A DNA stretch of 64,000 bases from Rhodoplanes tepidamans (GTDB lineage Bacteria; Pseudomonadota; Alphaproteobacteria; Rhizobiales; Xanthobacteraceae): assembly GCF_030813915.1 (NCBI RefSeq), contig NZ_JAUSUJ010000011.1, positions 62,001 through 126,000 of the forward strand, read 5' to 3'. The notes beneath the pieces were generated by a model. The model searched no databases, was not told where the DNA came from, and saw only the letters and a program-made list of their open reading frames with translations. Of this stretch, positions 23,216-57,469 are shown in pieces; positions within the stretch are counted from its first letter, which is position 1, and the number at the start of each line of letters is the position of its first letter. The position numbers and the translations under genes are program-made.

Positions 23216-23644
23216 ATGAGCGAGCCGGCCGCGAGTGAGCCGACCGTCAGCGAACCGGCCGTGGCCCGCACTCCGGGCGCCAAGCGGGCCGGCCCGGGCG
23301 AGTACGTGTTCGAGCTCGCGAAGGTCAATCACATTCTCGGCGGGCCCGACTACTCGACCGCGAACGGGGCCTGCGTCGAAGGCGATCGGATGATCGTCGG
23401 CCTGATGCGCATGCCCGCCGGCACCGGCGCGGCGCCGCATTCGCATCCGAACGAGCAGTGGATCTACGTCCTCGAGGGCACGTTCCGGGCGACCATCGGC
23501 GACCGGCCGGTCGAGGCCGGACCGGGCTCGCTCGTCTACATCCCGGCCGACACGATCCATTCGGGTGGCGCCACCGAGGACGGCGACGTGCTGTTCTTCA
23601 CCGTGAAGGACGCGTCCCACTCGCTGCACGGCATCAAGGCCTGA
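23216..23644 (+). CDS. cupin-domain protein
   Basis: 142 residues with a Ser/Glu/Pro-rich leader of about 25. The single cupin barrel has motif 1 in APHSHPNEQWIYVLEGTF (His-x-His and Glu present) and motif 2 in Val-Tyr-Ile-Pro-Ala-Asp-Thr-Ile-His-Ser, so a metal site is likely intact. It precedes the solute-binding protein by 116 bases and probably heads the plus-strand operon. It may handle the imported compound or a pathway intermediate; the function is not known. Confidence 0.82.
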   Translation: MSEPAASEPTVSEPAVARTPGAKRAGPGEYVFELAKVNHILGGPDYSTANGACVEGDRMIVGLMRMPAGTGAAPHSHPNEQWIYVLEGTFRATIGDRPVEAGPGSLVYIPADTIHSGGATEDGDVLFFTVKDASHSLHGIKA

Positions 23645-23760
23645 CCCTGCCGCCGTCGAGCGGCGGCGCCCTCCACGCCCGGGTCGGGCGTCGCGTTCTG
23701 CACCACGACACAACGATCCGTCACCGATCGAAATCGACGGACGCATCCAAGGAGGAGAGC

Positions 23761-24765
23761 ATGCAACGAACCGTGCTGGCCCTGATGTCGGCCGCCTGCG
23801 TCGCGGTGGCGGGTGTCGCCGCGACGTCGAGCGTCGTGGCGCAGGAGAAATACCCGTCGCGCACCGTCAAGATCATCGTGCCCTACGCGCCGGGCGGCGC
23901 CACCGACATCGTCGCGCGCCTGATCGGCGAGCACATGCGACAGGATCTCGGCCAGTCCTTCGTGGTGGAGAACAAGCCGGGCGCCTTCGGCATCATCGCC
24001 ATCGAGGAGATGGCGCGGGCGAAGCCCGACGGCTACACGCTGATGATCGGCAACGTGTCGACCAATGCCATCACGCCGGTGCTGTTCCCGAAGAAGTTCA
24101 AGATCGACTACGTCAAGGACGTCGTCCCGGTCACCCGCCTCGTCGACATTCCGGAGTTCATGGTCGCCACCACCAAGGACTTTCCGCCGAAGAACGTGAA
24201 GGACGTCGTCGACTACGCCAAGAAGAACCCCGGCAAGGTGCGCTACGGCTCGGTCGGCGTCGGCAGCTATCCGCACTACGACGCGGCGCTGTTCGCCAAG
24301 CGGGCCGGCGATCTCGACATGGTGGCGATCCACAACAAGGCCGGCGCCTCCGGGGTGATCAACGACCTGGTCTCGGGCGACGCGCAGTTCGCCTTCCTCA
24401 ACGTCGCCTCGACGGCGCCGATGATCAAGGCCGGCAACCTGCGCCCCTTCGCCCTCGTCAACCATGCGCGGCTGCCCGACTATCCGGACGTCCCGACCAT
24501 GGACGAGCTCGGCTACAAGGGCGTCGGCACGATCGCCTGGCAGGGGCTGTTCGCCCCGGCGGGGACGCCGCCCGAGGTTCTGGAGACGCTGTTCAAGGCG
24601 TCCGTGAAGGCCATGCAGGCGCCCGCCGTCCAGGAGGCCTTCAAGAAGCAGAACTTCAACGTGGTGCCGAGCAAGTCGACGGCCGAGGCGAAGACCTGGC
24701 TCGCCGCCGAGATGGACGCCTGGAAGAAGATCGCCGCCGAGGTGAAGATCGAGCTGGCGGAGTAG
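23761..24765 (+). CDS. Bug-family tripartite tricarboxylate transporter binding protein (TctC type)
   Basis: 334 residues. A signal peptide of about 28 residues ends Ser-Val-Val-Ala-Gln. The mature part opens YPSRTVKIIVPYAPGGATDI, the Bug signature in which the Pro-x-Ala-Pro-Gly-Gly loop grips a carboxylate. It is periplasmic and delivers a carboxylated ligand to TctAB, whose genes follow two positions downstream. A strong AAGGAGGAG precedes the ATG. Residues do not identify the ligand. Confidence 0.93.
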   Translation: MQRTVLALMSAACVAVAGVAATSSVVAQEKYPSRTVKIIVPYAPGGATDIVARLIGEHMRQDLGQSFVVENKPGAFGIIAIEEMARAKPDGYTLMIGNVSTNAITPVLFPKKFKIDYVKDVVPVTRLVDIPEFMVATTKDFPPKNVKDVVDYAKKNPGKVRYGSVGVGSYPHYDAALFAKRAGDLDMVAIHNKAGASGVINDLVSGDAQFAFLNVASTAPMIKAGNLRPFALVNHARLPDYPDVPTMDELGYKGVGTIAWQGLFAPAGTPPEVLETLFKASVKAMQAPAVQEAFKKQNFNVVPSKSTAEAKTWLAAEMDAWKKIAAEVKIELAE

Positions 24766-24791
24766 GCGAACGGTCGCTCGGTTCCCGGCCC

Positions 24792-24846
24792 GTCCTCTCC
24801 TCGCACGCAGAGGCTGCTCTCCCTCTCCCCGCGCGCGAGGAGAGGT
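24792..24846. repeat. extragenic repeat, CCTCTCC/GGAGAGG type
   Basis: CCTCTCC at 24822 and GGAGAGG at 24839 form an inverted repeat, with related half-copies just upstream. It resembles the longer elements at 29742-29882 and 31842-31984. Confidence 0.5.
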
Positions 24847-24890
24847 GAAGAGCCGACCTTTCCCGGACCATCGATATATCGACATACGGA

Positions 24891-26606
24891 GTGTCCTCAG
24901 TGCTGGACGTGAAGAGCGAGACGCCCGGCGGCGCCGGGACTGCCGGTGGCACGAGCAGCGGCATCCGGGTGGAGCGGAACGTCGACGTTCCGGTCCGCGA
25001 CGGTGCCCGCCTGAAGGCGGACGTGCTGCGGCCCGATGCCGACGGGCGGTTTCCGGCGCTGCTCAATCTCGGCCCCTACCAGAAGGACAAGGTGTGGATC
25101 CCTCCGGAGAACCTGGAGGAGAAGCCGAACCCGCTGATGAACTGGGAGACCGTGAACCCGGAATGGTGGGTGCCGCGCGGCTACGCCTGCGTCCGCATCG
25201 ACGCCCGCGGCACCGGCAAGTCGCCGGGCCGCACCCAGCCGTGGTCGCTGCAGGAATCGCTCGACTACTGCGACGCCATCGAATGGGCCGCGGCGCAGCC
25301 CTGGTGCAACGGCAAGGTCGGGCTGATCGGCATCTCCTACTTCGCCATCAACCAGTGGTTCGTCGCCAACCACCAGCCGCCCTCGCTCGCCGCGATCGTG
25401 CCGTGGGAGGGCTTCGCGGATCTCTATCGCGACGCCCTGTTCCACGGCGGCATCCTCAACCAGTTCATGACCAACTGGTTCGTCACGCATCTGTGCCACC
25501 ACCTGATCGGCCGGGCCTATCGGGACAATCCGGACACCTTCACGGCCGACACGCTGTGGCGCTGGGTGCGGCACAATCTCGACACCGGTGCCTTCGCGGG
25601 CGAGCAGGCGCAGTGGGACAGGATCACGGTGCCGCTGTTCTCGGTCGGCAACTGGTCCGGCATGGGCCTGCATCTGCGCGGCAACACCGAAGGGTTCATG
25701 CGCGCGGCCTCGAGGCACAAGAAGCTGCGGATGCATTCCGGCACGCATGTGCATCCGTTCTACACCGAGGAGGCGCGCGGGCAGCAGCTCCGCTTCCTCG
25801 ATCACTTCCTCAAGGGCGTCGACAACGGCGTCATGGACGAGCCGCCGGTGCGGCTGTTCATCCGCCACGGCAACGGCGAGGGCGTCTGGCGCGACGAGCA
25901 CGAATGGCCGCTCGCCCGCACGCAGTGGACCAGGATGTATCTCGACCTCTCGGCCCCGAAGCCGGGCGCGGCGGCGAACAGCGGCAGCCTGGTGCCGGAG
26001 AAGCCGGCGGAGACGTCGCACCGCACCTACAACGCCAGCGGCGCGTCGAAGGGCGGCTCGGCGTCGGCCTCGTCGACCTTCCTGGCGTCGGGCGCCATGC
26101 AGGCCGGCATGGGCATCACGCTCGACACGGCGCCGTTCGCCGAGGACACCGAGATCACCGGCCCGGTCGCCGCGACCCTGTGGGTGTCGAGCGCCACCGA
26201 GGACATGGATCTGTTCCTCACCATCCGCGACATCGACCCCGACGGCAACGACGTCTGGGAGGTCGGGCAGCAGGGCCAGCAGGTGCCGATCGCCAAGGGC
26301 TGGCTGCGGGTCTCGCATCGCGAGCTCGATCCGACGCTGAGCACGCCGTGGCGGCCCTATCACCGGCACGCGCGGCGGCTCTATCTCGAGCCGGGCGAGA
26401 TCGTGAAGGTTGAGGTCGAGATCTGGCCGACCTCTATGGTGTTCCGCAAGCGCCACCGGCTGCGGCTCGACATCCAGCCGCGCGACGGCGTGGGAAGCGT
26501 GCACTACACGCACTATCACGCCGACTACAACACCGGCACCAACACCATCTATTCCGGCGGCGACAAGGAGTCGTTCCTGCTGCTGCCCGTGATTCCGGCG
26601 CGATGA
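24891..26606 (+). CDS. CocE/NonD family hydrolase
   Basis: 571 residues from a GTG. The N-terminal alpha/beta-hydrolase domain has the Arg-Asp-Gly-Ala-Arg-Leu-Lys-Ala-Asp-Val family start, Arg-Ile-Asp-Ala-Arg-Gly-Thr-Gly-Lys-Ser, and a nucleophile elbow Gly-Ile-Ser-Tyr-Phe-Ala in place of the usual Gly-x-Ser-Tyr-x-Gly. A jelly-roll X-Pro-peptidase C-terminal domain follows from about residue 350. No signal peptide is visible, so it is cytosolic. Members cleave esters, beta-lactam side chains or X-Pro peptides. Lying between a Bug protein and TctB, it likely acts on the transported compound or its ester. Confidence 0.87.
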   Translation: MSSVLDVKSETPGGAGTAGGTSSGIRVERNVDVPVRDGARLKADVLRPDADGRFPALLNLGPYQKDKVWIPPENLEEKPNPLMNWETVNPEWWVPRGYACVRIDARGTGKSPGRTQPWSLQESLDYCDAIEWAAAQPWCNGKVGLIGISYFAINQWFVANHQPPSLAAIVPWEGFADLYRDALFHGGILNQFMTNWFVTHLCHHLIGRAYRDNPDTFTADTLWRWVRHNLDTGAFAGEQAQWDRITVPLFSVGNWSGMGLHLRGNTEGFMRAASRHKKLRMHSGTHVHPFYTEEARGQQLRFLDHFLKGVDNGVMDEPPVRLFIRHGNGEGVWRDEHEWPLARTQWTRMYLDLSAPKPGAAANSGSLVPEKPAETSHRTYNASGASKGGSASASSTFLASGAMQAGMGITLDTAPFAEDTEITGPVAATLWVSSATEDMDLFLTIRDIDPDGNDVWEVGQQGQQVPIAKGWLRVSHRELDPTLSTPWRPYHRHARRLYLEPGEIVKVEVEIWPTSMVFRKRHRLRLDIQPRDGVGSVHYTHYHADYNTGTNTIYSGGDKESFLLLPVIPAR

Positions 26607-26710
26607 GCGCGGCGTTTCCGCGTGCCGTCGTTCCGGGGCGCGGGCGCAAGCCCGCGAGCCCGGACTCCATGGCCCCGGGACATTGTCCGCCGAGGCTCGC
26701 CTCGCGCTCC

Positions 26711-26785
26711 GCTCATTCCCGCGAAAGCGGGAATCCAGGGCCACACGTCGAGTCGCCCTGGGGTCCCGCTTTCGCGGGAATGAGC
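26711..26785. repeat. REP-like palindrome with 21-bp perfect arms
   Basis: The arm GCTCATTCCCGCGAAAGCGG plus one G (26711-26731) is repeated in perfect inverted form at 26765-26785, each arm itself a small hairpin. If translated it gives the Ser-Phe-Pro-Arg-Lys-Arg-Glu-Ser-Arg peptide that contaminates many annotated proteins. The type is known as a mobile REP element dependent on RAYT transposases; none lies here. Confidence 0.85.
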
Positions 26786-26808
26786 GGAACATCGGTGCGG
26801 AGCCTGCC

Positions 26809-27306
26809 ATGACCGAAGCCTCCGGCTTTCCGATGACCCGGCCGTGGCGGCGGCTGATCCACCGCGACGTGCTCTCCGGTCTCCTGTTCATCGCGCTCGC
26901 CGGCCTCGGCCTGTGGCTGTCGCGCGACTATCCGGTCGGCACGGCGCTGCGCATGGGCACCGGCTACGTGCCGCGGCTGCTGTGCTGGATCCTGCTCGGC
27001 CTCGGCGCCGTGATCGCGCTGCGCGGCTTCATGGCACCGGGTGCCGAGCGCAGCACGCTGCCGATCGGCCTCGCCGCCGTCCGGCCCGTGATCCTGGTGT
27101 TCGTCGCGCTCGTCGTGTTCGGCGTCTCGCTGGAGCGGCTCGGGCTGGTGATCTCGATCCTCCTCCTGGTGGGGATCGGGGCGCTCGCCGGCCGCAATCT
27201 CCGCCCGGCCGAGACGGTGCTGGCGGCCGTTGTCCTGGTCGCGCTCGCATGGGGCGTGTTCATCGCCGGGCTCGGGCTGACGATCCCGGTCTGGCCGGAG
27301 TGGTAG
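26809..27306 (+). CDS. tctB: tripartite tricarboxylate transporter small membrane subunit, TctB
   Basis: 165 residues with four membrane helices (about 25-43, 56-78, 91-115 and 135-158). The Thr-Gly-Tyr-Val-Pro-Arg motif after helix 1 is typical of TctB. It supports the large subunit TctA in the inner membrane. The start at 26809 was preferred because the longer frame runs into the REP-like palindrome, whose translation is meaningless. It sits 7 bases before tctA. Confidence 0.88.
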   Translation: MTEASGFPMTRPWRRLIHRDVLSGLLFIALAGLGLWLSRDYPVGTALRMGTGYVPRLLCWILLGLGAVIALRGFMAPGAERSTLPIGLAAVRPVILVFVALVVFGVSLERLGLVISILLLVGIGALAGRNLRPAETVLAAVVLVALAWGVFIAGLGLTIPVWPEW

Positions 27307-27313
27307 GGGCGCC

Positions 27314-28816
27314 ATGGAGTTCCTGTCCAACCTGGCGCTCGGCTTCTCGGTGGCGCTGACCCCCGCGAATCTGGTGTTCGCCTTCGTCGGCGCGATGATC
27401 GGCACGCTGATCGGCGTGCTGCCCGGCATCGGCCCGATCGCCACCATCGCGATGCTGCTGCCGCTGACCTTCCATCTCGAGCCGACCGCCGGCCTGATCA
27501 TGCTGGCCGGCATCTTCTACGGGGCCCAGTACGGCGGCTCGACCACGGCGATCCTGATCAATCTGCCGGGCGAGACCTCCTCGGTGGTGACGACGCTCGA
27601 CGGCCACCAGATGGCGCGCAACGGCCGCGCCGGGGCGGCGCTGGCGGCGGCCGCGCTCGCCTCGTTCCTGGCCGGCTGCGTCAGCACCGCCCTGATCGCG
27701 ACGCTGGCGCCGCCGCTCGCCCGGGTCGGGCAGTCGTTCGGGGCGCCGGAGTACTTCTCGCTGATGGTGCTCGGGCTGATCGCCGCCGTGGTGCTGGCGC
27801 ACGGCTCGGTCCTCAAGGCGATCGCCATGATCGTGCTCGGCCTGCTGCTCGGCCTGATCGGCACCGACGGCAACACCGGCGGCCAGCGCTTCACCTTCGG
27901 GCTCAACGAGCTCGCCGACGGGATCGACGTCGCGACGCTGGCGATCGGGCTGTTCGGCATCAGCGAGATCATGGCCAACCTGACGCAGCGGGAATCCTCG
28001 CGCGAGCCGGTGGTGCAGAAGATCACCCGGCTGTGGCCGACCGGCGAGGAGTTCCGGCGCGGCTGGCCGGCGGCGCTGCGCGGCACCGCCCTCGGCGCCG
28101 TGCTCGGCGTGCTGCCGGGCGGCGGCGCGACGCTCTCGGCCTTCGCGGCCTATGCCCTCGAGAAGCGCGTCTCCGACCGCCCGGGAATGTTCGGGCGCGG
28201 CGCCATCGAGGGCGTGGCCGCGCCGGAGGCCGCCAACAACGCCGGTGCGCAGAGCTCCTTCATTCCCATGCTGACGCTGGGCCTGCCCGGCAATCCGGTG
28301 ATGGCGCTGATGATCGGCGCGCTGATGATCCACGGCATCCAGCCGGGCCCGCAGATCATGACCGAGCGGCCGCAGATGTTCTGGGGCATGGTCGCCTCGA
28401 TGTGGATCGGCAATCTCATGCTGGTGATCATCAACCTGCCGCTGATCGGCATGTGGGTGCAGCTCCTCAAGGTGCCGTACCGGTTCCTCTATCTCGCCGT
28501 GCTGCTGTTCTGTGCCATCGGCGTCTACACGGTGAGCAACAGCCCGGCGGCCGTGGTGATGGCGGCGATCTTCGGGGTGGCCGGCTTCGTCTTCCAGCGG
28601 CTCTCCTGCGAGCCGGCGCCGCTGATCCTCGGCTTCGTGCTCGGGCCGCTGATGGAGGAGAACCTGCGGCGCGCGCTGCGGGTCTCGGGTGGCGACCCGA
28701 TGATCTTCGTCAATCGGCCGATCTCGCTCGGCCTGCTGATCGTCGCCTTGGTCCTGCTGCTGATCGTCGCCCTGCCGGCGATCCGCTCGGGCCGCGAGCA
28801 GGCGTTCCAGGAGTAG
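27314..28816 (+). CDS. tctA: tripartite tricarboxylate transporter large subunit, TctA
   Basis: 500 residues with about 11-12 membrane helices. The two hallmark regions are GVLPGIGPIATIAMLLPLTF (about 35-54) and the later Gly-Val-Leu-Pro-Gly-Gly-Gly-Ala. Ile-Glu-Gly-Val-Ala-Ala-Pro-Glu-Ala-Ala-Asn-Asn-Ala is the third family signature. It is the ion-coupled channel subunit of the Bug-dependent importer and a close paralogue of the gene at 38673-40181. Confidence 0.95.
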   Translation: MEFLSNLALGFSVALTPANLVFAFVGAMIGTLIGVLPGIGPIATIAMLLPLTFHLEPTAGLIMLAGIFYGAQYGGSTTAILINLPGETSSVVTTLDGHQMARNGRAGAALAAAALASFLAGCVSTALIATLAPPLARVGQSFGAPEYFSLMVLGLIAAVVLAHGSVLKAIAMIVLGLLLGLIGTDGNTGGQRFTFGLNELADGIDVATLAIGLFGISEIMANLTQRESSREPVVQKITRLWPTGEEFRRGWPAALRGTALGAVLGVLPGGGATLSAFAAYALEKRVSDRPGMFGRGAIEGVAAPEAANNAGAQSSFIPMLTLGLPGNPVMALMIGALMIHGIQPGPQIMTERPQMFWGMVASMWIGNLMLVIINLPLIGMWVQLLKVPYRFLYLAVLLFCAIGVYTVSNSPAAVVMAAIFGVAGFVFQRLSCEPAPLILGFVLGPLMEENLRRALRVSGGDPMIFVNRPISLGLLIVALVLLLIVALPAIRSGREQAFQE

Positions 28817-33463: not shown

Positions 33464-34216
33464 TCAGCGCGTGATGACGATCTTCTGGTACAGGCCGCCG
33501 AAATAGGAGGTCCGCGGCCAGTCCTTCTTGGACCAGGGGGCGGGCATCCAGGTGGTCAGCTTGTGGTTCCAGAGATCGAGCGCGAACGGCTCCAGCACGG
33601 CCAGGACCGGCTTGAACCAGTAGCGCCACGGGTGCCACCAGTCCGGCTTGGCGTAGTCGACGATCACCACCTTGCCGCCCGGCTTCACCACGCGGAAGAT
33701 CTCGGCGAGCGTCTTCTCGCGATGCTCGACCGGCTGCTCGTGGAACAGCAGGTAGACGATGGCGCGGTCGTAGCTCGCGTCGGGCAGGTTGAGGTCGGCC
33801 GAATCCATGTTCAGGAGCCGCACCGGCGCGTCGGCCTTGAGCTTGCGGCGCACGTTGCGCAGCTGCGCCGGCACGATGTCGATGACGTCGAGGCGCCCGC
33901 CGCCGGCGGAGACGCGGTCGCACAGGTGCGGCGTCAGGTCACCATAGGCGCAGGCGACCTGCAGGGTGCTGCCCGGAAGCTCGTCGCCCATCTCGGCGAG
34001 CGCGGCGTTCCTCAGCTTGGCGTAGTTGCCCCACAGGATGAAGTTGATGATCGGCTGATGGTCGAAGAAACGGATCGCGTTCGGGTGAATATAAGCCCAC
34101 CAGTAATGCTTCTCGAGGTAAGCAGGAATGGAAACGACGGGAGCTTTCGCACTATCTACCGGTGAGCCGGCCTCGATTCGCACCGAAGTCGGCGTTCTGA
34201 CTGCAGTACTCTGCAT
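33464..34216 (-). CDS. rquA: RquA-like rhodoquinone-biosynthesis methyltransferase homologue, copy 1
   Basis: 250 residues from the ATG at 34216, with GAGGT 8 bases upstream. Family landmarks are Tyr-Leu-Glu-Lys-His-Tyr-Trp-Trp-Ala-Tyr-Ile-His-Pro-Asn-Ala (33-47) and Ile-Leu-Trp-Gly-Asn-Tyr-Ala-Lys-Leu-Arg (60-69). The SAM-site region is the odd Leu-Gln-Val-Ala-Cys-Ala-Tyr-Gly-Asp (85-93) in place of the glycine-rich motif I of class I methyltransferases. The fold ends with SYFGGLYQKIVITR. RquA exchanges the methoxy group of ubiquinone for an amino group, giving rhodoquinone used with fumarate reductase in low oxygen. A close paralogue lies immediately upstream. Confidence 0.85.
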   Translation of the reverse strand: MQSTAVRTPTSVRIEAGSPVDSAKAPVVSIPAYLEKHYWWAYIHPNAIRFFDHQPIINFILWGNYAKLRNAALAEMGDELPGSTLQVACAYGDLTPHLCDRVSAGGGRLDVIDIVPAQLRNVRRKLKADAPVRLLNMDSADLNLPDASYDRAIVYLLFHEQPVEHREKTLAEIFRVVKPGGKVVIVDYAKPDWWHPWRYWFKPVLAVLEPFALDLWNHKLTTWMPAPWSKKDWPRTSYFGGLYQKIVITR

Positions 34217-34302
34217 GTGTAATGACCTCGAAACGGGTGGGGGATCCCGCAAGAGTTCATGCCCCCTGTAATCGACCATCGCATTCACCCCGGTACAACA
34301 CC

Positions 34303-34316
34303 TTGAGATAACGCAA
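34303..34316. promoter_or_regulatory. weak FNR/Dnr-like box upstream of rquA copy 1
   Basis: TTGAGATAACGCAA has the outer TTG...CAA of the FNR-type TTGAT-N4-ATCAA site but only about seven of ten consensus bases. It lies 87 bases before the copy-1 ATG. Low-oxygen control of a rhodoquinone gene would make sense; the match alone is weak. Confidence 0.25.
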
Positions 34317-34364
34317 CACTAAACCATCGGGCACGTCCGCCATGCGCGGCGGACGGGGCGGGGC

Positions 34365-35114
34365 TCAGCGGGTCACGACAATCGCCTGGTAAAGTCCACC
34401 AAAGTACGAGCGCCGCTCGATTTTCCGGTCGTGCGGCAGATCCGGAATCCAGGCCGCGACGTCCTCGCGCCAGAGATCCAGGGCGAAGGGTTCGAGCGCG
34501 GCCAGCACCGGTGCGAATACGTATCGCAGCGGGTTCCACCAATGCGGGCGGGCGTAGTCGACGATGACGACGCGGCCCCCGGGCTTCACCACCCGCAGGG
34601 CCTCGGCGAGGGTGCGGCGGCGCCAGCTCTCCGGCTGCTCGTGCAGCAGGAAGAACAGGAGCGCGCGGTCGTAGGTCGCGTCGTCGAGCGGCAGCGCCGA
34701 CGAATCGGTCTCCACCAGCCGCGCCGGTGCATCGGCCGGCAGCTTGCGGCGCAGATTGTCGAGCTGCACCGGCAGCACGTCGACGATGTCGAGCTCGCCG
34801 CCCCCGGCGGCGACGCGATCGACGAGATGCGGCGTCAGGTCCCCGTAGGCGCAGGCGACCTGGAGGGTGCGGCCCGGCAGCGCCCCGCCCAGGAGGGCGA
34901 GGGCGGCATCGCGCAGGCGCGCGTAATTTCCCCAGAGAATGAGATTCGCGAGCCACTGGCGCTCGAACACCCGCACGGCGTTCGGGTGCACATAGGCCCA
35001 CCAGTAGTGAACGTCGAGATAGGAGGGCACCTGCGGCGCCGCCTGCGCCTCGAGGTGCGGCAATCCCGCCGGGGCGCCGCCCGAGACCGCCTGCGTCGCG
35101 ACCGCTGACTTCAT
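34365..35114 (-). CDS. rquA: RquA-like methyltransferase homologue, copy 2
   Basis: 249 residues from the ATG at 35114 behind GGGGGGAG. It aligns end to end with copy 1 after a divergent 30-residue N terminus: HYWWAYVHPNAVRVFERQW, Ile-Leu-Trp-Gly-Asn-Tyr-Ala-Arg-Leu-Arg, Leu-Gln-Val-Ala-Cys-Ala-Tyr-Gly-Asp-Leu-Thr-Pro-His-Leu and SYFGGLYQAIVVTR. By eye well over half the positions are identical. Copy 2 has 'LLFFLLHEQPE' where copy 1 has 'AIVYLLFHEQPV'. The 148-base gap and separate ribosome sites suggest individually tuned expression. Either may be the active enzyme or they may share the task. Confidence 0.83.
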   Translation of the reverse strand: MKSAVATQAVSGGAPAGLPHLEAQAAPQVPSYLDVHYWWAYVHPNAVRVFERQWLANLILWGNYARLRDAALALLGGALPGRTLQVACAYGDLTPHLVDRVAAGGGELDIVDVLPVQLDNLRRKLPADAPARLVETDSSALPLDDATYDRALLFFLLHEQPESWRRRTLAEALRVVKPGGRVVIVDYARPHWWNPLRYVFAPVLAALEPFALDLWREDVAAWIPDLPHDRKIERRSYFGGLYQAIVVTR

Positions 35115-35417
35115 GTCGTGCTCCCCCCACCGTCCGGAACCAACAGATCCGAACTTATCGCATAGCACACAGCCGATGGGCGCAACATCCTTGGCTTTAC
35201 AGACACGTTGTCACGAGATCCTTACGCGGTCCTCCTTATGGTGGATCACGGATGGTCGAGATCCGAGGCGTCGGCTGCCTTTTCCGATTGCCGCGCCCGG
35301 GCGGCGGGTCGATACTCGGAGGTGCTCGGAGCTCGGTGCGGGCCGCGGACGCGGCGAGGCGCGCCGCCGGGTGCGGGGCGGTGCGGCACCGGAGCGATCC
35401 GAGCAGGAGAAGCCGCA
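35115..35417. promoter_or_regulatory. divergent promoter region between rquA copy 2 and the CBS-BON gene
   Basis: 303 bases with a locally A/T-richer part around 35150-35230 that should hold both promoters. On the minus strand TTGCGC followed 15 bases later by TATGCG is a possible but short-spaced promoter for rquA copy 2. Nothing else is recognised. Confidence 0.3.
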
Positions 35418-36149
35418 ATGAAAGCCCGAGACGTGATGTCGAGCCGGGTGGTGTCGGTCGCCCCCGAAGCCACCATCCAGGATGCCATCCGGCTGATGCT
35501 GGACAACCGGATCAGCGGGCTGCCGGTGGTGGATGCCGCCGGCACCCTGGTGGGGATCGTCACGGAAGGGGACTTCCTGCGCCGCGCCGAGACCGGCACG
35601 CTGCGCAAGCGGCCGCGCTGGCTCGAGATGCTGATCGGCCCCAACAGCCTCGCGACCGACTATGTGCGCTCGCACGGCCGCCGGGTCGAGGAGGTGATGA
35701 CCCGCACGCCCGTCACGGTCGGCGAGGACGCCGGCCTCGACGAGATCGTCGCTCTCATGGAGCGCAAGCGGGTGAAGCGGCTGCCGGTGGTGCGCGGCCG
35801 TGAGGTGGTCGGCATCGTCAGCCGCGCCAACCTGCTGCACGCGCTGGCGAGCGTCAGCCGCGACCTGCCGCCGGCGCCGGCCAGCGACGCCGAGATCCGG
35901 ACCCAGGTGATGGACGAGCTCGCCCGCCAGCCCTGGGCGCCTATCGCGCTCGTCGACGTCATCGTCAAGGACGGCGTCGTCGAGCTGTGGGGCAGCATCA
36001 CCGAATCGAAGCAGGGCGAGGCCCTGCGGGTGGTCGCCGAGAACGTGCCCGGCGTGAAGGGCGTGGTCAGCCATCTCGCCTGGATCGAGCCGATGTCCGG
36101 CCTCGTGATCAGCGAGCCCGACGTCCCGCCGACGCGAAAGACGGGATGA
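35418..36149 (+). CDS. CBS-CBS-BON domain protein
   Basis: 243 residues from an ATG after AGGAGAAG. Two CBS motifs (about 6-60 and 93-147) each show Val-Met-Ser/Thr followed by Ile-Val-x-Leu-Met, with Gly-Ile-Val-Thr-Glu-Gly-Asp-Phe-Leu ending the first. A BON domain (about 160-230; Val-Lys-Asp-Gly-Val-Val-Glu-Leu-Trp-Gly) completes it. CBS pairs bind adenine nucleotides and BON domains bind lipids or membranes, so a cytosolic stress or energy sensor is likely. No partner gene is attached. Confidence 0.88.
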   Translation: MKARDVMSSRVVSVAPEATIQDAIRLMLDNRISGLPVVDAAGTLVGIVTEGDFLRRAETGTLRKRPRWLEMLIGPNSLATDYVRSHGRRVEEVMTRTPVTVGEDAGLDEIVALMERKRVKRLPVVRGREVVGIVSRANLLHALASVSRDLPPAPASDAEIRTQVMDELARQPWAPIALVDVIVKDGVVELWGSITESKQGEALRVVAENVPGVKGVVSHLAWIEPMSGLVISEPDVPPTRKTG

Positions 36150-38672: not shown

Positions 38673-40181
38673 TCACCCCGCGTCCTCCGCGAACACCTTC
38701 TCGCGGCCGGCGCGGATCGCCGGAAGCAGCAGGATCAGCACGACGATCGCGGTGAGGATCAGGAAGACGAGGCTGATCGGCCGCTCGACGAACACGGCCG
38801 GGCTGCCGTGCGAGATGAGGAGCGCGCGGCGCAGGTTCTCCTCGATCAGCGGGCCCAGGATGAAGCCGAGCAGCAGCGGCGCCGGCTCGCATTGCAGGCG
38901 GGTGAGCACGTAGCCGACCAGGCCGAACACGCTGGCGACGATCACGTCGAGCGCGTCGTTGCGGATCGAGTAGACGCCGATGCAGCAGATCAAGAGGATC
39001 GACGGATAGAGCAGCCGGTACGGCACGGTGAGCAGCTTCGCCCAGAAGCCGACCAGCGGCAGGTTGAGGACGACCAGCAGCAGGTTGCCGATCCACATCG
39101 AGGCGACCAGCCCCCAGAACAGCTCGGGCTTCTCGGCGATCAACTGCGGGCCGGCATAGAGGCCGTGCATCATCAGGGCGCCGACCATCAGCGCCATCAC
39201 CGGGCTCGCCGGCAGGCCGAGGGTCAGCAGCGGGATGAACGCGGTCTGCGAGGCCGAGTTGTTGGCCGCCTCCGGCGCGGCGACGCCCTCGATGGCGCCC
39301 TTGCCGAACTTCTCCGGCTCGTCGGAGATGCGCTTCTCCAGCGCGTAGGCCGAGAAGGAGGCGAGCACCGGGCCGCCGCCCGGCAGGATGCCGAGCGCGG
39401 CGCCGAGGAACGTGCCGCGCAGGGCGGGCCGCACGATCTCCTTGAGATCGTGCGGCTTGGGCCACAGGCCCTTGTAGTCCTTCACGTACTCGCGCGCCTC
39501 GGCGCCTCGGCCGAGATTCGTGATGGTCTCGCCGATGCCGAAGATGCCCATGGCGATGACCGCGAAGTCGATGCCGTCGCCGAACTGCGGCACCCCGAAG
39601 GTGTAGCGCGGCAGGCTGGAATTGACGTCGATGCCCATGGTGCCGAGCAGGATGCCGACCAGGATCATGCCGATCGCCTTGATCACCGAGCCGTGCGCCA
39701 GGATGACGGCGGCGACCAGGCCGAACACCATCAGCGAGAAGTAGTCGGCCGGCCCGAAATCGAGCGCGAACTCGGCGAGCGCCGGCGCCGCGAAGGCGAT
39801 GATGAAGGTGGCGATGGTGCCGGCCATGAAGGAGGACAGCGCCGCGGTGGCGAGCGCCAGTCCCGCCTTGCCCTTGCGGGCCATCTGGTAGCCGTCGAGC
39901 GTCGTCACGACGGACGAGGATTCGCCCGGCAGGTTGACCAGGATCGCCGTCGTCGAGCCGCCATAGGCGGCGCCGTAGTAGATGCCGGCCAGCATGATGA
40001 TGGCCGACTGCGGCTGCAGCGTGAAGGTGACCGGCAGCAGGATCGAGATGGTCGCCACCGGCCCGAGACCCGGCAGCACGCCGATGGCGGTGCCGAGCAG
40101 CACGCCCAGGAAGGCGTAGACCAGGTTGATCGGCTCGAGCGCGACCGAGAAGCCGAGGGCGAGATTGCTCAGCACGTCCAT
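38673..40181 (-). CDS. tctA: tripartite tricarboxylate transporter large subunit, TctA, second system
   Basis: 502 residues, opening MDVLSNLALGFSVALEPINL, nearly the same as the first system. Gly-Val-Leu-Pro-Gly-Leu-Gly-Pro-Val-Ala-Thr-Ile-Ser and Gly-Ile-Leu-Pro-Gly-Gly-Gly-Pro-Val are the two transport motifs, with Ile-Glu-Gly-Val-Ala-Ala-Pro-Glu-Ala-Ala-Asn-Asn later. It has about 11-12 membrane helices. It ends the minus-strand operon Gfo/Idh - Bug - tctB - tctA. Confidence 0.95.
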   Translation of the reverse strand: MDVLSNLALGFSVALEPINLVYAFLGVLLGTAIGVLPGLGPVATISILLPVTFTLQPQSAIIMLAGIYYGAAYGGSTTAILVNLPGESSSVVTTLDGYQMARKGKAGLALATAALSSFMAGTIATFIIAFAAPALAEFALDFGPADYFSLMVFGLVAAVILAHGSVIKAIGMILVGILLGTMGIDVNSSLPRYTFGVPQFGDGIDFAVIAMGIFGIGETITNLGRGAEAREYVKDYKGLWPKPHDLKEIVRPALRGTFLGAALGILPGGGPVLASFSAYALEKRISDEPEKFGKGAIEGVAAPEAANNSASQTAFIPLLTLGLPASPVMALMVGALMMHGLYAGPQLIAEKPELFWGLVASMWIGNLLLVVLNLPLVGFWAKLLTVPYRLLYPSILLICCIGVYSIRNDALDVIVASVFGLVGYVLTRLQCEPAPLLLGFILGPLIEENLRRALLISHGSPAVFVERPISLVFLILTAIVVLILLLPAIRAGREKVFAEDAG

Positions 40182-40188
40182 CGGAGCC

Positions 40189-40629
40189 TCACCACTGCGG
40201 GAAGGGGCGGAGCGGCAGGCTGAGGCCGAGCCAGAACAGCGCCGCGACGAAGGAGACGAGGCCGAGCGCCAGGAGCCCGACCTCGAGCGGCCGGAAGTCG
40301 CGGTCGGCGAGCCGCGCCAGCACCACGACCAGGATCGCCGAGATCACGAAGCCGGCCTTCTCGACCAGCAGCCCGAACAGGATCGTTCCGGTGAGGACGA
40401 ACAGCAGCGGCCGCAGCGAGATGCCCTCGATGCGGTCGCCGGGAGCGAAGAGCGAGCGGGCGACCAGGATCAGGCCGAGCAGCACCAGGCCGGAGCTGAC
40501 CAGCATCGGATAGTAGCCGGGACCGATGCGGGCCGGGGTGCCGAGCGGGTAGTTCCAGCCGTAGACGATGGCGAACAGGCCGAGCGAAACGAAGAGCAGG
40601 CCGGTGACGAGATCGGTCGAGAGTCGCAT
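40189..40629 (-). CDS. tctB: tripartite tricarboxylate transporter small membrane subunit, TctB, second system
   Basis: 146 residues with four membrane helices and the Pro-Ala-Arg-Ile-Gly-Pro-Gly-Tyr-Tyr-Pro segment after the first. It is shorter than the first-system TctB because the N-terminal tail is absent. The ATG at 40629 follows GGGAGG by about 9 bases; an upstream in-frame ATG at 40665 would only add an arginine-rich tail. Seven bases separate it from tctA. Confidence 0.88.
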   Translation of the reverse strand: MRLSTDLVTGLLFVSLGLFAIVYGWNYPLGTPARIGPGYYPMLVSSGLVLLGLILVARSLFAPGDRIEGISLRPLLFVLTGTILFGLLVEKAGFVISAILVVVLARLADRDFRPLEVGLLALGLVSFVAALFWLGLSLPLRPFPQW

Positions 40630-40753
40630 GCGCACGGGCACCTCCCTTCGCCATGGAAACACCATCGCATCGTCGCGGCACGGCGGTGCGCGACGGCGGG
40701 TCCATCAGGACGATGCGGCCGGACCGCGAGGCCCGGCCACCCACGCGAACGGA

Positions 40754-41755
40754 TCAGTCCGGCTTGGCGCCAGATTCCTGGATCACCTTGGCCCAGCGGG
40801 CCGTTTCCTTGCCGATGAAGGTCTTGAACGCCTCGGGCGACTGGCTCGCCACCGCCGAGACCCCGCCCTCGAGCATGCGCTGCTTCACGGTCGGGTCCGC
40901 CGTCGCCTTGACGATCGCCTGGAACAGCTTGTCGACGATCGGCTTGGGCGTGCCGGTCGGCACCAGGAAGCCCTGCCAGGAGGTGGTGACGATGTCCGGA
41001 TAACCGAGCTCGACCACGGTCGGCACGTCGGGCAGCGCCGGGCTGCGCTTCGAGTCGGTGATGGCCAGCACCTTCACCCGGCCGGACTTGATGTGCGGCA
41101 TCGCCGAGGGCAGCGTCACCGACATCACCTCGACATGGCCGCCGAGAATGTCCGCCACGGCCGGGCCGGCCCCGCCCTTGTAGGGCACGTGGTTCATGTC
41201 GAGGCCAGCCGCCTTCCGGAACTGCTCCATCTCCAGGCGGTCGACGCTGCCGCTGCCGGGCGAGGCGAAGTTCACCTTGCCGGGCCGCGCCTTCACGTAG
41301 TCGACGAACTCCTTGATGGTGTTCGGCGGGAACTTGGGATTGGCGATGAAGACGCTGGGCGTCTCCGAGGCCACCGAGACCGGGATGAAGGCCTTGTCGG
41401 GCTTCACGGTCATGTCGGGGAACAGGGTCGGGTTGATCGACACGGTGCCGACATTGCCGAAGAACAGGGTGTAGCCGTCCGGCGCGCCGCGGGCGGCGAC
41501 GTCCATGCCGACATTGCCGGCGGCGCCGGCGCGGTTCTCGATGACGATCTGCTGGCCAAGCGCCTGCGACATAGGCGCCTGCAGCAGCCGCATCGCGAAG
41601 TCGGAAGCGCCACCCGGGGCGAAGGGCACGATGACCCGGATCGGCTGGCTCGGATATTTCGACGGGTCCTCGGCGGCGAGGGCGCCGCCCACGGAGCCGA
41701 ACGCGATCACGCAGGTGGTCGCGAGCAGGGTGCCCAGAACGTGTCGACGATTCAT
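40754..41755 (-). CDS. Bug-family binding protein (TctC type), second system
   Basis: 333 residues. The signal peptide ends Gly-Gly-Ala-Leu-Ala-Ala at about residue 28. The mature part has YPSQPIRVIVPFAPGGASDF, Ile-Glu-Asn-Arg-Ala-Gly-Ala-Ala-Gly-Asn-Val-Gly and a Val-Pro-Tyr-Lys-Gly-Gly region typical of Bug proteins. It captures a carboxylate in the periplasm for TctAB just downstream. It differs clearly from the first Bug protein (for instance Ala-Gly-Asn-Val-Gly against Phe-Gly-Ile-Ile-Ala), so a different ligand is likely. Confidence 0.93.
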   Translation of the reverse strand: MNRRHVLGTLLATTCVIAFGSVGGALAAEDPSKYPSQPIRVIVPFAPGGASDFAMRLLQAPMSQALGQQIVIENRAGAAGNVGMDVAARGAPDGYTLFFGNVGTVSINPTLFPDMTVKPDKAFIPVSVASETPSVFIANPKFPPNTIKEFVDYVKARPGKVNFASPGSGSVDRLEMEQFRKAAGLDMNHVPYKGGAGPAVADILGGHVEVMSVTLPSAMPHIKSGRVKVLAITDSKRSPALPDVPTVVELGYPDIVTTSWQGFLVPTGTPKPIVDKLFQAIVKATADPTVKQRMLEGGVSAVASQSPEAFKTFIGKETARWAKVIQESGAKPD

Positions 41756-53449: not shown

Positions 53450-54871
53450 ATGCCGAGTTCCATCGGACCACGACCCAGCCGGGCCGCGATCCGGTCTGCC
53501 TTGCTCGGTCTCCTGCTGATCGCCGCCACGGCCTTCGCCCTCCTGGCTCCGGCCCGGGCCGCGCGGGCCAGCGAGGCGCGCACCGCCCTCGTCGTCGGCA
53601 ACGGCGCCTACGGCTTCGCCCCGCTCGCCAATCCGGCGAACGACGCGACCGACGTCGCGGCGGCGTTGCGCGGCGCCGGCTTCGACGTGACGCTTCTCAC
53701 CGACACGGACCGGGCGGCCCTGGAGGCGGCGGTGCGGCGCTTCGGCCAGCGGCTGAAGGAGCGCGGTGGCGTCGGCCTCTTCTTCTTCGCCGGGCACGGC
53801 GTCCAGGTCGGCGGCGAGAACTACATCGTCCCGGTCGGTGCGCGCGCGCCCGCCCCGGAGGAGCTGAGGTCGGCCTCGCTCGCCGCCTCCGAGGTGGTGG
53901 ACGCCATGGCGGAGGCCGGCAACGCGCTCAACATCGTGGTGCTGGACGCCTGCCGCGACAACCCGATTCCCGGCACCGACACCAAGGGGCTGTCGCGCAT
54001 CGACAGCGGCGCGCGGCTGTTCGTCTCCTTCTCGACCTCCCCGGGGGCGGTCGCACTCGACGGCGAGGGACGCAACAGTCCCTACAGCAAGCATCTCGTC
54101 CAGGCGCTGCAGACGCCGGGCCTCGCGCTCGAGGACACCTTCAAGCGCACCCTCAAGGGTGTGTACCAGGAGACCGGCGGCCGGCAGACGCCGTGGCTCT
54201 CGTCCTCCTTCTTCGGCGACTTCGTCTTCCGCGACGCTCCGGCGGCGGGCGGTGCATCGTCCACCGCGGACCGGCGGGAGCGGCCTGCGGTCCGTCCGGG
54301 CGTCGCCCCGCAGGTCGCCGGCATCTACCGGGCGGAGGGCCGCAACCCGGACGGCACGCGCTACCGCGGCATGGCGGCGCTGCAACCGGACGGCGCGCGC
54401 ATGCGCTTCACCTGGTGGATCGGCAACCAGGTCTATCGCGGGACCGGCGAGTTCGCCGGCCGCATGCTGGTGGTCGACTGGGGCGAGAAGCATCCGGTCG
54501 TCTACACGCTCGATTCCGGCCCCGTGCTCGAGGGCGAGTGGGCCGACGGCACGGCGACCGACCGGCTCGTCCCGTTCGGCCTCGCCGCCGGCACTCCCGT
54601 GGCACCCCCGCAGGGCCGCTATCGGGTCGCCGGGCGTAACGCCGACGGCAGCCGCTACAGCGGCAGCGCGACGCTGCGGCCCGACGGCGACCGCATCCGG
54701 CTGAGCTGGCGGGTCGGGTCGGGCTACCAGGGTACGGGGCGGCTCGCCGGCAACGTGCTCACCGTCGACTGGGGCGGGGCGACCCCGATCGTCTACGGGC
54801 TCGGCGCGGACGGCATCCTCCGGGGGCTGTGGGACGCCGGCCGGGCCGAGGAGGTTCTGACCCGCGAGTGA
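53450..54871 (+). CDS. secreted caspase-family (peptidase C14) protein with two C-terminal repeats
   Basis: 473 residues. A signal peptide (about 1-40) ends Ala-Arg-Ala-Ser. The caspase p20-like domain (43-260) has the dyad His116 (Phe-Phe-Phe-Ala-Gly-His-Gly) and Cys168 (Val-Leu-Asp-Ala-Cys-Arg-Asp-Asn), intact. After a Pro/Arg linker come two related beta-rich repeats, about residues 290-366 and 389-464, sharing Gly-Arg-Asn-x-Asp-Gly-x-Arg-Tyr, a Leu-x-Pro-Asp-Gly turn and Val-Asp-Trp-Gly. Bacterial metacaspase-like proteins of this kind act in stress or envelope processes; the repeats may bind a ligand. Confidence 0.88.
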   Translation: MPSSIGPRPSRAAIRSALLGLLLIAATAFALLAPARAARASEARTALVVGNGAYGFAPLANPANDATDVAAALRGAGFDVTLLTDTDRAALEAAVRRFGQRLKERGGVGLFFFAGHGVQVGGENYIVPVGARAPAPEELRSASLAASEVVDAMAEAGNALNIVVLDACRDNPIPGTDTKGLSRIDSGARLFVSFSTSPGAVALDGEGRNSPYSKHLVQALQTPGLALEDTFKRTLKGVYQETGGRQTPWLSSSFFGDFVFRDAPAAGGASSTADRRERPAVRPGVAPQVAGIYRAEGRNPDGTRYRGMAALQPDGARMRFTWWIGNQVYRGTGEFAGRMLVVDWGEKHPVVYTLDSGPVLEGEWADGTATDRLVPFGLAAGTPVAPPQGRYRVAGRNADGSRYSGSATLRPDGDRIRLSWRVGSGYQGTGRLAGNVLTVDWGGATPIVYGLGADGILRGLWDAGRAEEVLTRE

Positions 54872-56326: not shown

Positions 56327-57469
56327 ATGCCCAGCGTCCTTCGCTCTCTGCTGCCCGCCGTTCTTCTGATCCTCTCGGCTCTCGCCGCGTCGCCCGCCCC
56401 GGCCCAGCCGGCCGCTCCGACCCCCTCGACGCCGCAGGGCGCCGCGGCCCCACCGGAGCTGAAGGTGGCGACCCGGGTGCTGCCACCGCTCGTCGTCGAC
56501 CAGCATGGCCAGCTCGGCGGCTTCAGCATCGACCTGTGGAACGCGATCGGCGAGCGTCTCGGCGCCAGGACCGCGCTCCAGGTGGCGCCGGACGTGCGGG
56601 CGCTGCTGGAGATGGTCCGGTCCGGCAATGCCGACTTCGGCATCTCGGCGATCTCGATCACGGCGGCGCGCGAGAAGGAATTCGACTTCTCGCAGCCGAT
56701 GCTCAATGCCGGCCTGCAGATCATGATCCGCGGCCAGGGCGCCGGGCAGGGGCAGGACGGGGAGGCCGATCCGCTGCGCGACCTGCTCGGTCTCCTGTTC
56801 TCGAAGGCGATCCTGGTCTGGCTCGGCATCGCACTGCTGCTGATCCTGGTGCCGGCCCACGTCGTCTGGCTGCTGGAGCGGCGGCAGAAGGACGGCATCA
56901 TCCCGACGCCGAGCTACATTCCCGGCATCTTCCATGCGCTCTACTGGGCGGCCGGCACGCTCGTCGCCCAGGGCGAGCAGCAGCCGCGCCAGTGGCTCGC
57001 CCGCATCGTCGCGCTGCTGTGGATGTTCACGGGTGTCGTCTTCGTCGCCTTCTACACGGCGCAACTGGCCGCCACCCTCACGGTGCAGCAGATCCAGAGC
57101 GGCATCCGCGGTCCCGACGACCTGCCGGGCAAGCGCGTCGCCACCACGCGCGGCAGCACCGCCGCCACCTATCTGCGCCAGATGAACGCCCAGGTGATCG
57201 AGGTCGGGCGCATCGACGAGGCCTTCACGGCGCTGGTCGACCGCGAGGTCGACGCCGTCGTGTTCGACGCGCCCGTGCTGCAGTACTACGCGGCGAATGC
57301 CGGCAAGGGGCGGGTCCAGATGGTCGGCCCGCTGTTCCGCAAGGAGGACTACGGCATCGTCTTCCCGCAGGGGAGCGCGCTGCGCAAGCAGGTCAACGCC
57401 GCGCTGCTGGCGTTGCGCGAGGACGGCACCTACCAGCAGCTCCACGACAAGTGGTTCTCGGTCAAGTAG
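56327..57469 (+). CDS. prokaryotic ionotropic glutamate receptor-like channel protein
   Basis: 380 residues. A signal peptide (1-26) is followed by a split periplasmic amino-acid-binding domain interrupted by a channel. S1 is about 43-135, with the ligand carboxylate-binding Ile-Thr-Ala-Ala-Arg-Glu at 111-116. M1 is about 160-184, a pore helix region 201-215, M2 226-252, and S2 258-380 with Thr-Thr-Arg-Gly-Ser-Thr. The pore lacks the potassium Gly-Tyr-Gly filter. M2 ends Phe-Tyr-Thr-Ala-Gln-Leu-Ala-Ala-Thr-Leu-Thr, close to the SYTANLAAF gating motif of animal receptors. It probably opens an ion path on binding an amino acid. Confidence 0.85.
   Translation: MPSVLRSLLPAVLLILSALAASPAPAQPAAPTPSTPQGAAAPPELKVATRVLPPLVVDQHGQLGGFSIDLWNAIGERLGARTALQVAPDVRALLEMVRSGNADFGISAISITAAREKEFDFSQPMLNAGLQIMIRGQGAGQGQDGEADPLRDLLGLLFSKAILVWLGIALLLILVPAHVVWLLERRQKDGIIPTPSYIPGIFHALYWAAGTLVAQGEQQPRQWLARIVALLWMFTGVVFVAFYTAQLAATLTVQQIQSGIRGPDDLPGKRVATTRGSTAATYLRQMNAQVIEVGRIDEAFTALVDREVDAVVFDAPVLQYYAANAGKGRVQMVGPLFRKEDYGIVFPQGSALRKQVNAALLALREDGTYQQLHDKWFSVK

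Follow-up and report, generated by a model that had tools for sequence, protein, structure and literature searches.

When oxygen is scarce, rhodoquinone allows fumarate to serve cells as an electron sink; RquA forms this quinone from ubiquinone with SAM and Mn2+ in an unusual reaction in which SAM donates the amino group. The window analysed here, a 64-kb stretch of Rhodoplanes DNA, carries two rquA-like genes side by side, which raises the question of why both are kept. The initial annotation took rquA to be normally a single gene and suggested that the copies work at different oxygen levels or form a catalytic/auxiliary pair. The premise of a single gene stands for bacteria as far as searched, in that no adjacent bacterial rquA pair is reported in the searched passages of open-access papers, but it does not extend to heterotrich ciliates, among which Spirostomum, Blepharisma and Stentor are described with multiple rquA genes in the accessible text of PMC7813818. 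Rhodoplanes resembles these ciliates, which have two or three, in possessing diverged RquA paralogs in one organism; the ciliate sets, however, are eukaryotic and not reported there as adjacent, whereas the Rhodoplanes pair is bacterial and adjacent, with promoters that differ.

The genes are arranged head to tail, U (upstream) before D (downstream), with an intergenic gap of 148 bp, and the protein lengths in Table 1 follow from the ATG codons at 34216 (D) and 35114 (U). As annotated, they are two full-length tandem open reading frames of RquA type, both matching the RquA equivalog model NCBIfam NF038261 over its full length and above its curated cut-off of 175 bits. The proteins are 60% identical over 251 columns and their N-terminal tails are unlike each other, as had also been noticed; a profile search of the genome revealed no third RquA match above the cut-off. 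Pfam methyltransferase families match both copies, as expected of the class I SAM-dependent methyltransferase fold, and the structure models of both are confident and of the same fold class as RquA, the fold search having covered D only. UbiE/Coq5 quinone methyltransferases differ, given that the UbiE/MenG models score far under their cut-offs on the pair (49.9 and 40.4 bits vs 158.35 for TIGR01934). Motif I of class I methyltransferases is usually glycine-rich, and where it usually stands both U and D read QVACAYGDLT. The SAM-binding motif I of RquA is described as deviating from that of other class I methyltransferases (PMC5953543).

Table 1. Features of the rquA locus, in window coordinates
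Feature	Position	Strand	Length	Remarks
rquA copy U (upstream)	34365..35114	minus	249 aa	NF038261 290.1 bits
rquA copy D (downstream)	33464..34216	minus	250 aa	NF038261 288.9 bits
D residues 155-162 (YLLFHEQP)	33731..33754	minus		D-specific Y155, L156 and F158 adjoining conserved HEQP
D residues 52-57 (DHQPII)	34046..34063	minus		D-specific H53 and P55, N-terminal helix region
FixK2-type box TTGCGTTATCTCAA	34303..34316	minus		In U-D gap, upstream of D
Conserved D leader, box to start codon	34217..34302	minus		Alignment of five species
Conserved blocks upstream of U, probable U promoter	35159..35201	minus		Alignment of five U upstream regions
CBS-BON domain gene	35418..36149	plus		Divergent to the pair; Pfam CBS and BON

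Both copies also have two aspartates 25 residues apart (113 and 138 in D, 112 and 137 in U), the first of which is invariant; the distance, compared as spacing, equals that between D118 and D143 of Rhodospirillum rubrum RquA, whose joint replacement is reported to abolish RQ8 (PMC9814641). In curated family, fold class, odd motif I, HEQP-type motif and, judged by spacing, apparently also the aspartates, the pair is like RquA of R. rubrum and other bacteria, and it is unlike a single bacterial RquA in comprising two adjacent, 60% identical copies, of which D has changes and a promoter box of its own. That both are RquA-family proteins, as initially proposed, is almost certain given the NF038261 scores, and a tree of 110 rows places the two amid RquA proteins of bacteria. 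At least one of them very likely produces rhodoquinone, and it is probable that both are catalytically active.

The pair is not peculiar to one assembly. It is found adjacent in all five Rhodoplanes genomes that are at least 90% complete (G000-G004, the host included), the named relatives nearest to the host being Rhodoplanes elegans DSM 11907, Rhodoplanes sp. Cfx2-03, R. serenus DSM 18633 and 'Rhodovulum' sp. PH10; the recurrence of the gene order in four other Rhodoplanes genomes makes an assembly artefact unlikely. G005, which is 58% complete, has one U-lineage gene on a 3,840-bp contig without a second copy alongside. Samples at genus, family, order, class and phylum level, deliberately weighted to the window's genus (1,483 genomes in total, with the host included anew at each level), yielded NF038261 matches over the cut-off in 104 distinct genomes. 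Among these 104, adjacent pairs occur in six, namely G000-G004 and G041, a member of the same family but of a different genus. Two further genomes (G301 and G726) have two over-cut-off copies each on separate contigs, and G1228 has one copy above and one below the cut-off. The G041 pair lies at about 9621-11251 of L131 (G041:C7:14001-34000), its upstream copy having a long branch in the trees (1.03 and 1.35) and being preceded by an FNR-type box. In a genome of the same order (L074, G387), an rquA-like gene is broken across two reading frames, and a plasmid search gave no match to U at 1e-20. In R. elegans DSM 11907, which we take to be the same strain as AS130T, U and D are the only RquA matches over the cut-off. 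R. elegans AS130T is listed with Q-10 and RQ-10 in Table 1 of PMC12470966, and rhodoquinone is mentioned for Rhodoplanes spp. in PMC10715153. The pair, natural and long kept in a genus for which rhodoquinone is reported, provides two presumably tuned forms of the enzyme for comparison.

How far the copies have diverged was assessed by comparing columns among 5 D rows, 6 U rows and 99 others, in which 28 family-conserved columns were defined, each at least 90% conserved in the 99 other rows. U retains 28/28 of them in all six rows, and D retains 27/28 in four species and 25/28 in PH10. The sole departure common to all D proteins is F158, beside HEQP, where phenylalanine occurs in 0/105 non-D rows. 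At eighteen columns each copy is invariant but with a different residue, two of these columns lying within unalignable tails. Y155, L156 and F158 sit at the end of a strand directly before HEQP, which presumably borders the SAM and substrate site in this fold. The initial annotation had placed copy-specific changes near the active site at residues 151-163 and 219-235: the former block is borne out by the fixed differences at 155, 156 and 158, and the latter is not, as none of its columns is invariant in each copy with a different residue, D being conserved there while U merely varies. Copy-specific divergence is also seen in a patch of the N-terminal helix region, around whose H53 and P55 the model predicts helices at 45-51 and 54-60. 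A far, long-branch RquA-like clade from Lysobacterales, Mariprofundus and other MAGs (L048-L053, L055, L056 and L099), only ~32-38% identical to D in the rows compared, also has H53 and P55 in a 'DHQPIIN'-type motif; this likeness may reflect convergence or a common lid constraint.

Both copies are under purifying selection. Pairwise omega, computed for five species by the Nei-Gojobori method with our own script, spans 0.10-0.31 among D genes and 0.18-0.46 among U genes, and D is lower in 10/10 species pairs, which are not independent of one another. Set against four neighbouring genes (0.13-0.40), U is ordinary and D strict in constraint. GC3 is similar in the two copies (0.82-0.89).

The promoters differ as well. 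The pattern of the box in front of D, TTGC-N6-TCAA, fits the FixK2 consensus TTGA/C-N6-T/GCAA from Bradyrhizobium diazoefficiens (PMC9104804). By itself this match means little, given that the consensus occurs twice in the window vs 0.82 expected; the weight of the predicted box rests on its conservation across species, since it stands at one alignment column in 5/5 species, with a shared match in 0/20,000 column shuffles, a conservation that does not amount to five independent events because the five species are related. Within 326 bp upstream of U, no exact FixK2-type match is found in any of six genomes, R. elegans having one site with one mismatch. The suggestion of different oxygen levels is thereby strengthened, though only as regards promoter sequence, through a conserved FixK2-type box before D and not before U, and D is probably oxygen-regulated through this box. 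U, whose own promoter could answer oxygen via another regulator, may also contribute to D expression by transcriptional read-through, no terminator-like site having been found. The searched passages of open-access papers report no FixK control of rquA; as far as the literature was searched, the conserved bacterial rquA pair and the FixK2-type box before D are new here. The presence of such a box on one copy and its absence on the other allow a direct test of whether oxygen controls the supply of rhodoquinone.

The box also bears on where D begins. An alternative ATG at 34279 would give a protein of 271 aa, and the 63-nt stretch that it adds is open and of equal length in 5/5 species, its variable columns being spread over codon positions 1/2/3 as 9/4/10, without significant periodicity (p 0.26). 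A class II FixK site would place the transcription start of D near 34268, downstream of this codon, and GAGG precedes the ATG at 34216; for both reasons the 250-aa form is likelier. The D leader has a possible GGGGG/CCCCC hairpin (GGGGA/TCCCC in PH10) and could alternatively be an N-terminal extension.

Candidate regulators are at hand. Twelve CRP/FNR-type helix-turn-helix matches exceed the Pfam cut-off in the host genome; two of these proteins, compared with NCBIfam, match FixK best and then FnrL, all under curated cut-offs (FixK scores of 230.1 and 128.1 vs 300). As in the FixK2 regulon of B. diazoefficiens, the box fits the consensus, here in a genome that encodes candidate FixK-/FnrL-like proteins; compared with that regulon, the D box is a prediction from sequence. 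As a control, exactly one FixK2-type box was found upstream of ccoN in 6/6 genus genomes, a sign that the genus uses this box. Two adjacent U32-family proteins, apparently the UbiU/UbiV pattern, which would fit oxygen-independent ubiquinone synthesis, are encoded in 5/6 genus genomes, and these five ubiUV loci have no FixK2-type box. Across the RquA family, a box match occurs in 25/107 rquA upstream regions vs 3.9 expected from Markov resampling, the count covering the 107 of 110 rows for which 250 bp or more lay upstream, and the 25 regions including 5 D genes and several mutual close relatives, so that they are not independent. This excess hints at wider low-oxygen control of rquA. Among the nearer relatives, the upstream G041 copy, the G160 gene and L036 have the box, and L035, L037 and the Rhodoblastus genes do not. 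Some of the rquA upstream boxes are perfect FNR palindromes, and L064 has two.

The comparisons lean, on balance, towards an old rquA duplication with regulatory division of labour and some enzyme divergence. In such a history, rquA would have been duplicated, most simply in the Rhodoplanes ancestor, and both enzymes kept adjacent, each presumably swapping a methoxy group of ubiquinone for an amino group from SAM. U would provide rhodoquinone from a FixK-independent promoter, a FixK/FNR-type regulator would turn D on at low oxygen, and the pocket changes in D may tune the enzyme to that role, a case of regulatory subfunctionalisation.

It is unlikely, by comparison, that dosage is all that matters, with the same chemistry and role in both copies, more rhodoquinone being useful and the differences mostly drift. 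Such a view would agree with the retention of nearly all family-conserved residues and with the conservation of both copies. It sits poorly with promoters that differ between U and D in every species compared, with the clustering of the fixed D changes beside HEQP and in one helix, and with the long stem of D (0.45 and 0.51), followed by slow change under strong constraint; this history looks like one of change and then hold, and rate effects may bear on the placement of D. A bolder possibility, likewise improbable, is that D is no plain RquA: its fast stem, its frozen, rebuilt pocket (H53/P55 and Y155-L156-F158) and its predicted low-oxygen control, beside an ordinary U, could then reflect another aminoquinone or another form of ubiquinone, or U and D might work only as a heterodimer.

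A duplication also has to be weighed against lateral transfer, by which one copy, probably D, would have arrived beside a resident gene and the two would not be mutual duplicates. Trees were built from 110 RquA-type rows and from 30 rows, with L074 omitted. D forms a clade of 5 rows (support 100/100 in both trees) and U one of 6 rows that includes G005 (100/97 and 99/98 in the 110- and 30-row trees, respectively), and both are nested among bacterial RquA rows in the 110-row tree, which was made without labelled characterised enzymes or a UbiE outgroup. The free trees do not recover a U+D clade, the surrounding branches being poorly supported, and a tree constrained to unite U and D matches the free one in likelihood (p-AU 0.527 and 0.509); forcing G005 outside U+D is 8.1 log units worse (p 0.262) and is not rejected. 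Transfer is compatible with a U+D monophyly that is unrejected yet absent from the free tree, with reports that rquA moves between lineages (PMC5953543, PMC11707229) and with the greater nearness of single-copy relatives to U than to D: L035, L036, L037, G160 and also the downstream G041 copy are 67-68% identical to U and 58-62% to D. The upstream G041 copy is ~50-52% identical to both, and of six groupings of the G041 copies with U and D none was rejected (p-AU 0.126-0.45). Against transfer, U and D occupy one region of the tree, are similar in GC3 and lie adjacent on one strand, and no closer relative of D emerged from the relatives search or the 110-row tree. Taken together, arrival of D by transfer is distinctly unlikely. 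Nor does the pair look like one group A and one group B copy, RquA types described as never together in one organism among 182 organisms in the accessible text of PMC5953543: in a tree without group A/B anchor sequences, the region common to U and D lies outside a 34-row HELP/HEVP-rich clade (100/97).

Very unlikely is the initially proposed division into a catalytic copy and an auxiliary one, whether as a heterodimer or with D as regulatory subunit: D-specific changes do lie near the presumed active site, and a mixed U/D dimer is conceivable because the R. rubrum enzyme reportedly forms homodimers in detergent (PMC9814641), but each copy alone has the full aspartate set and HEQP, both keep nearly all conserved residues under purifying selection, single-copy RquA is reported to suffice in vitro in R. 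rubrum, and a U-type gene stands without D alongside in G005, incomplete as that genome is.

The pair is flanked by genes for transporters and metabolic enzymes. Of 30 window genes examined with Pfam (28 with a family at 1e-10), none was recognised as respiratory, whereas many rquA genes are described as neighbouring respiratory genes (PMC5953543). The CBS-BON gene lies beside the pair in 4/4 relatives by tblastn (L133, L134, L135 and L136), and most other neighbours tested are not near the pair in PH10. A single match to the SDH/FRD flavoprotein C-terminal family in the host genome leaves no sign of a separate fumarate reductase flavoprotein; an Rfam scan of the window gave nothing at gathering scores. 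Two tripartite tricarboxylate transporter sets (TctC, TctB and TctA; 23458-28816 and 38673-41755) lie on either side of the rquA region, each on a different strand. Farther along, a gene at 53450-54871 encodes a caspase-domain (peptidase C14) protein and adjoins a manganese catalase gene, and another at 56327-57469 combines solute-binding and ligand-gated ion channel domains, resembling a bacterial ionotropic glutamate receptor.
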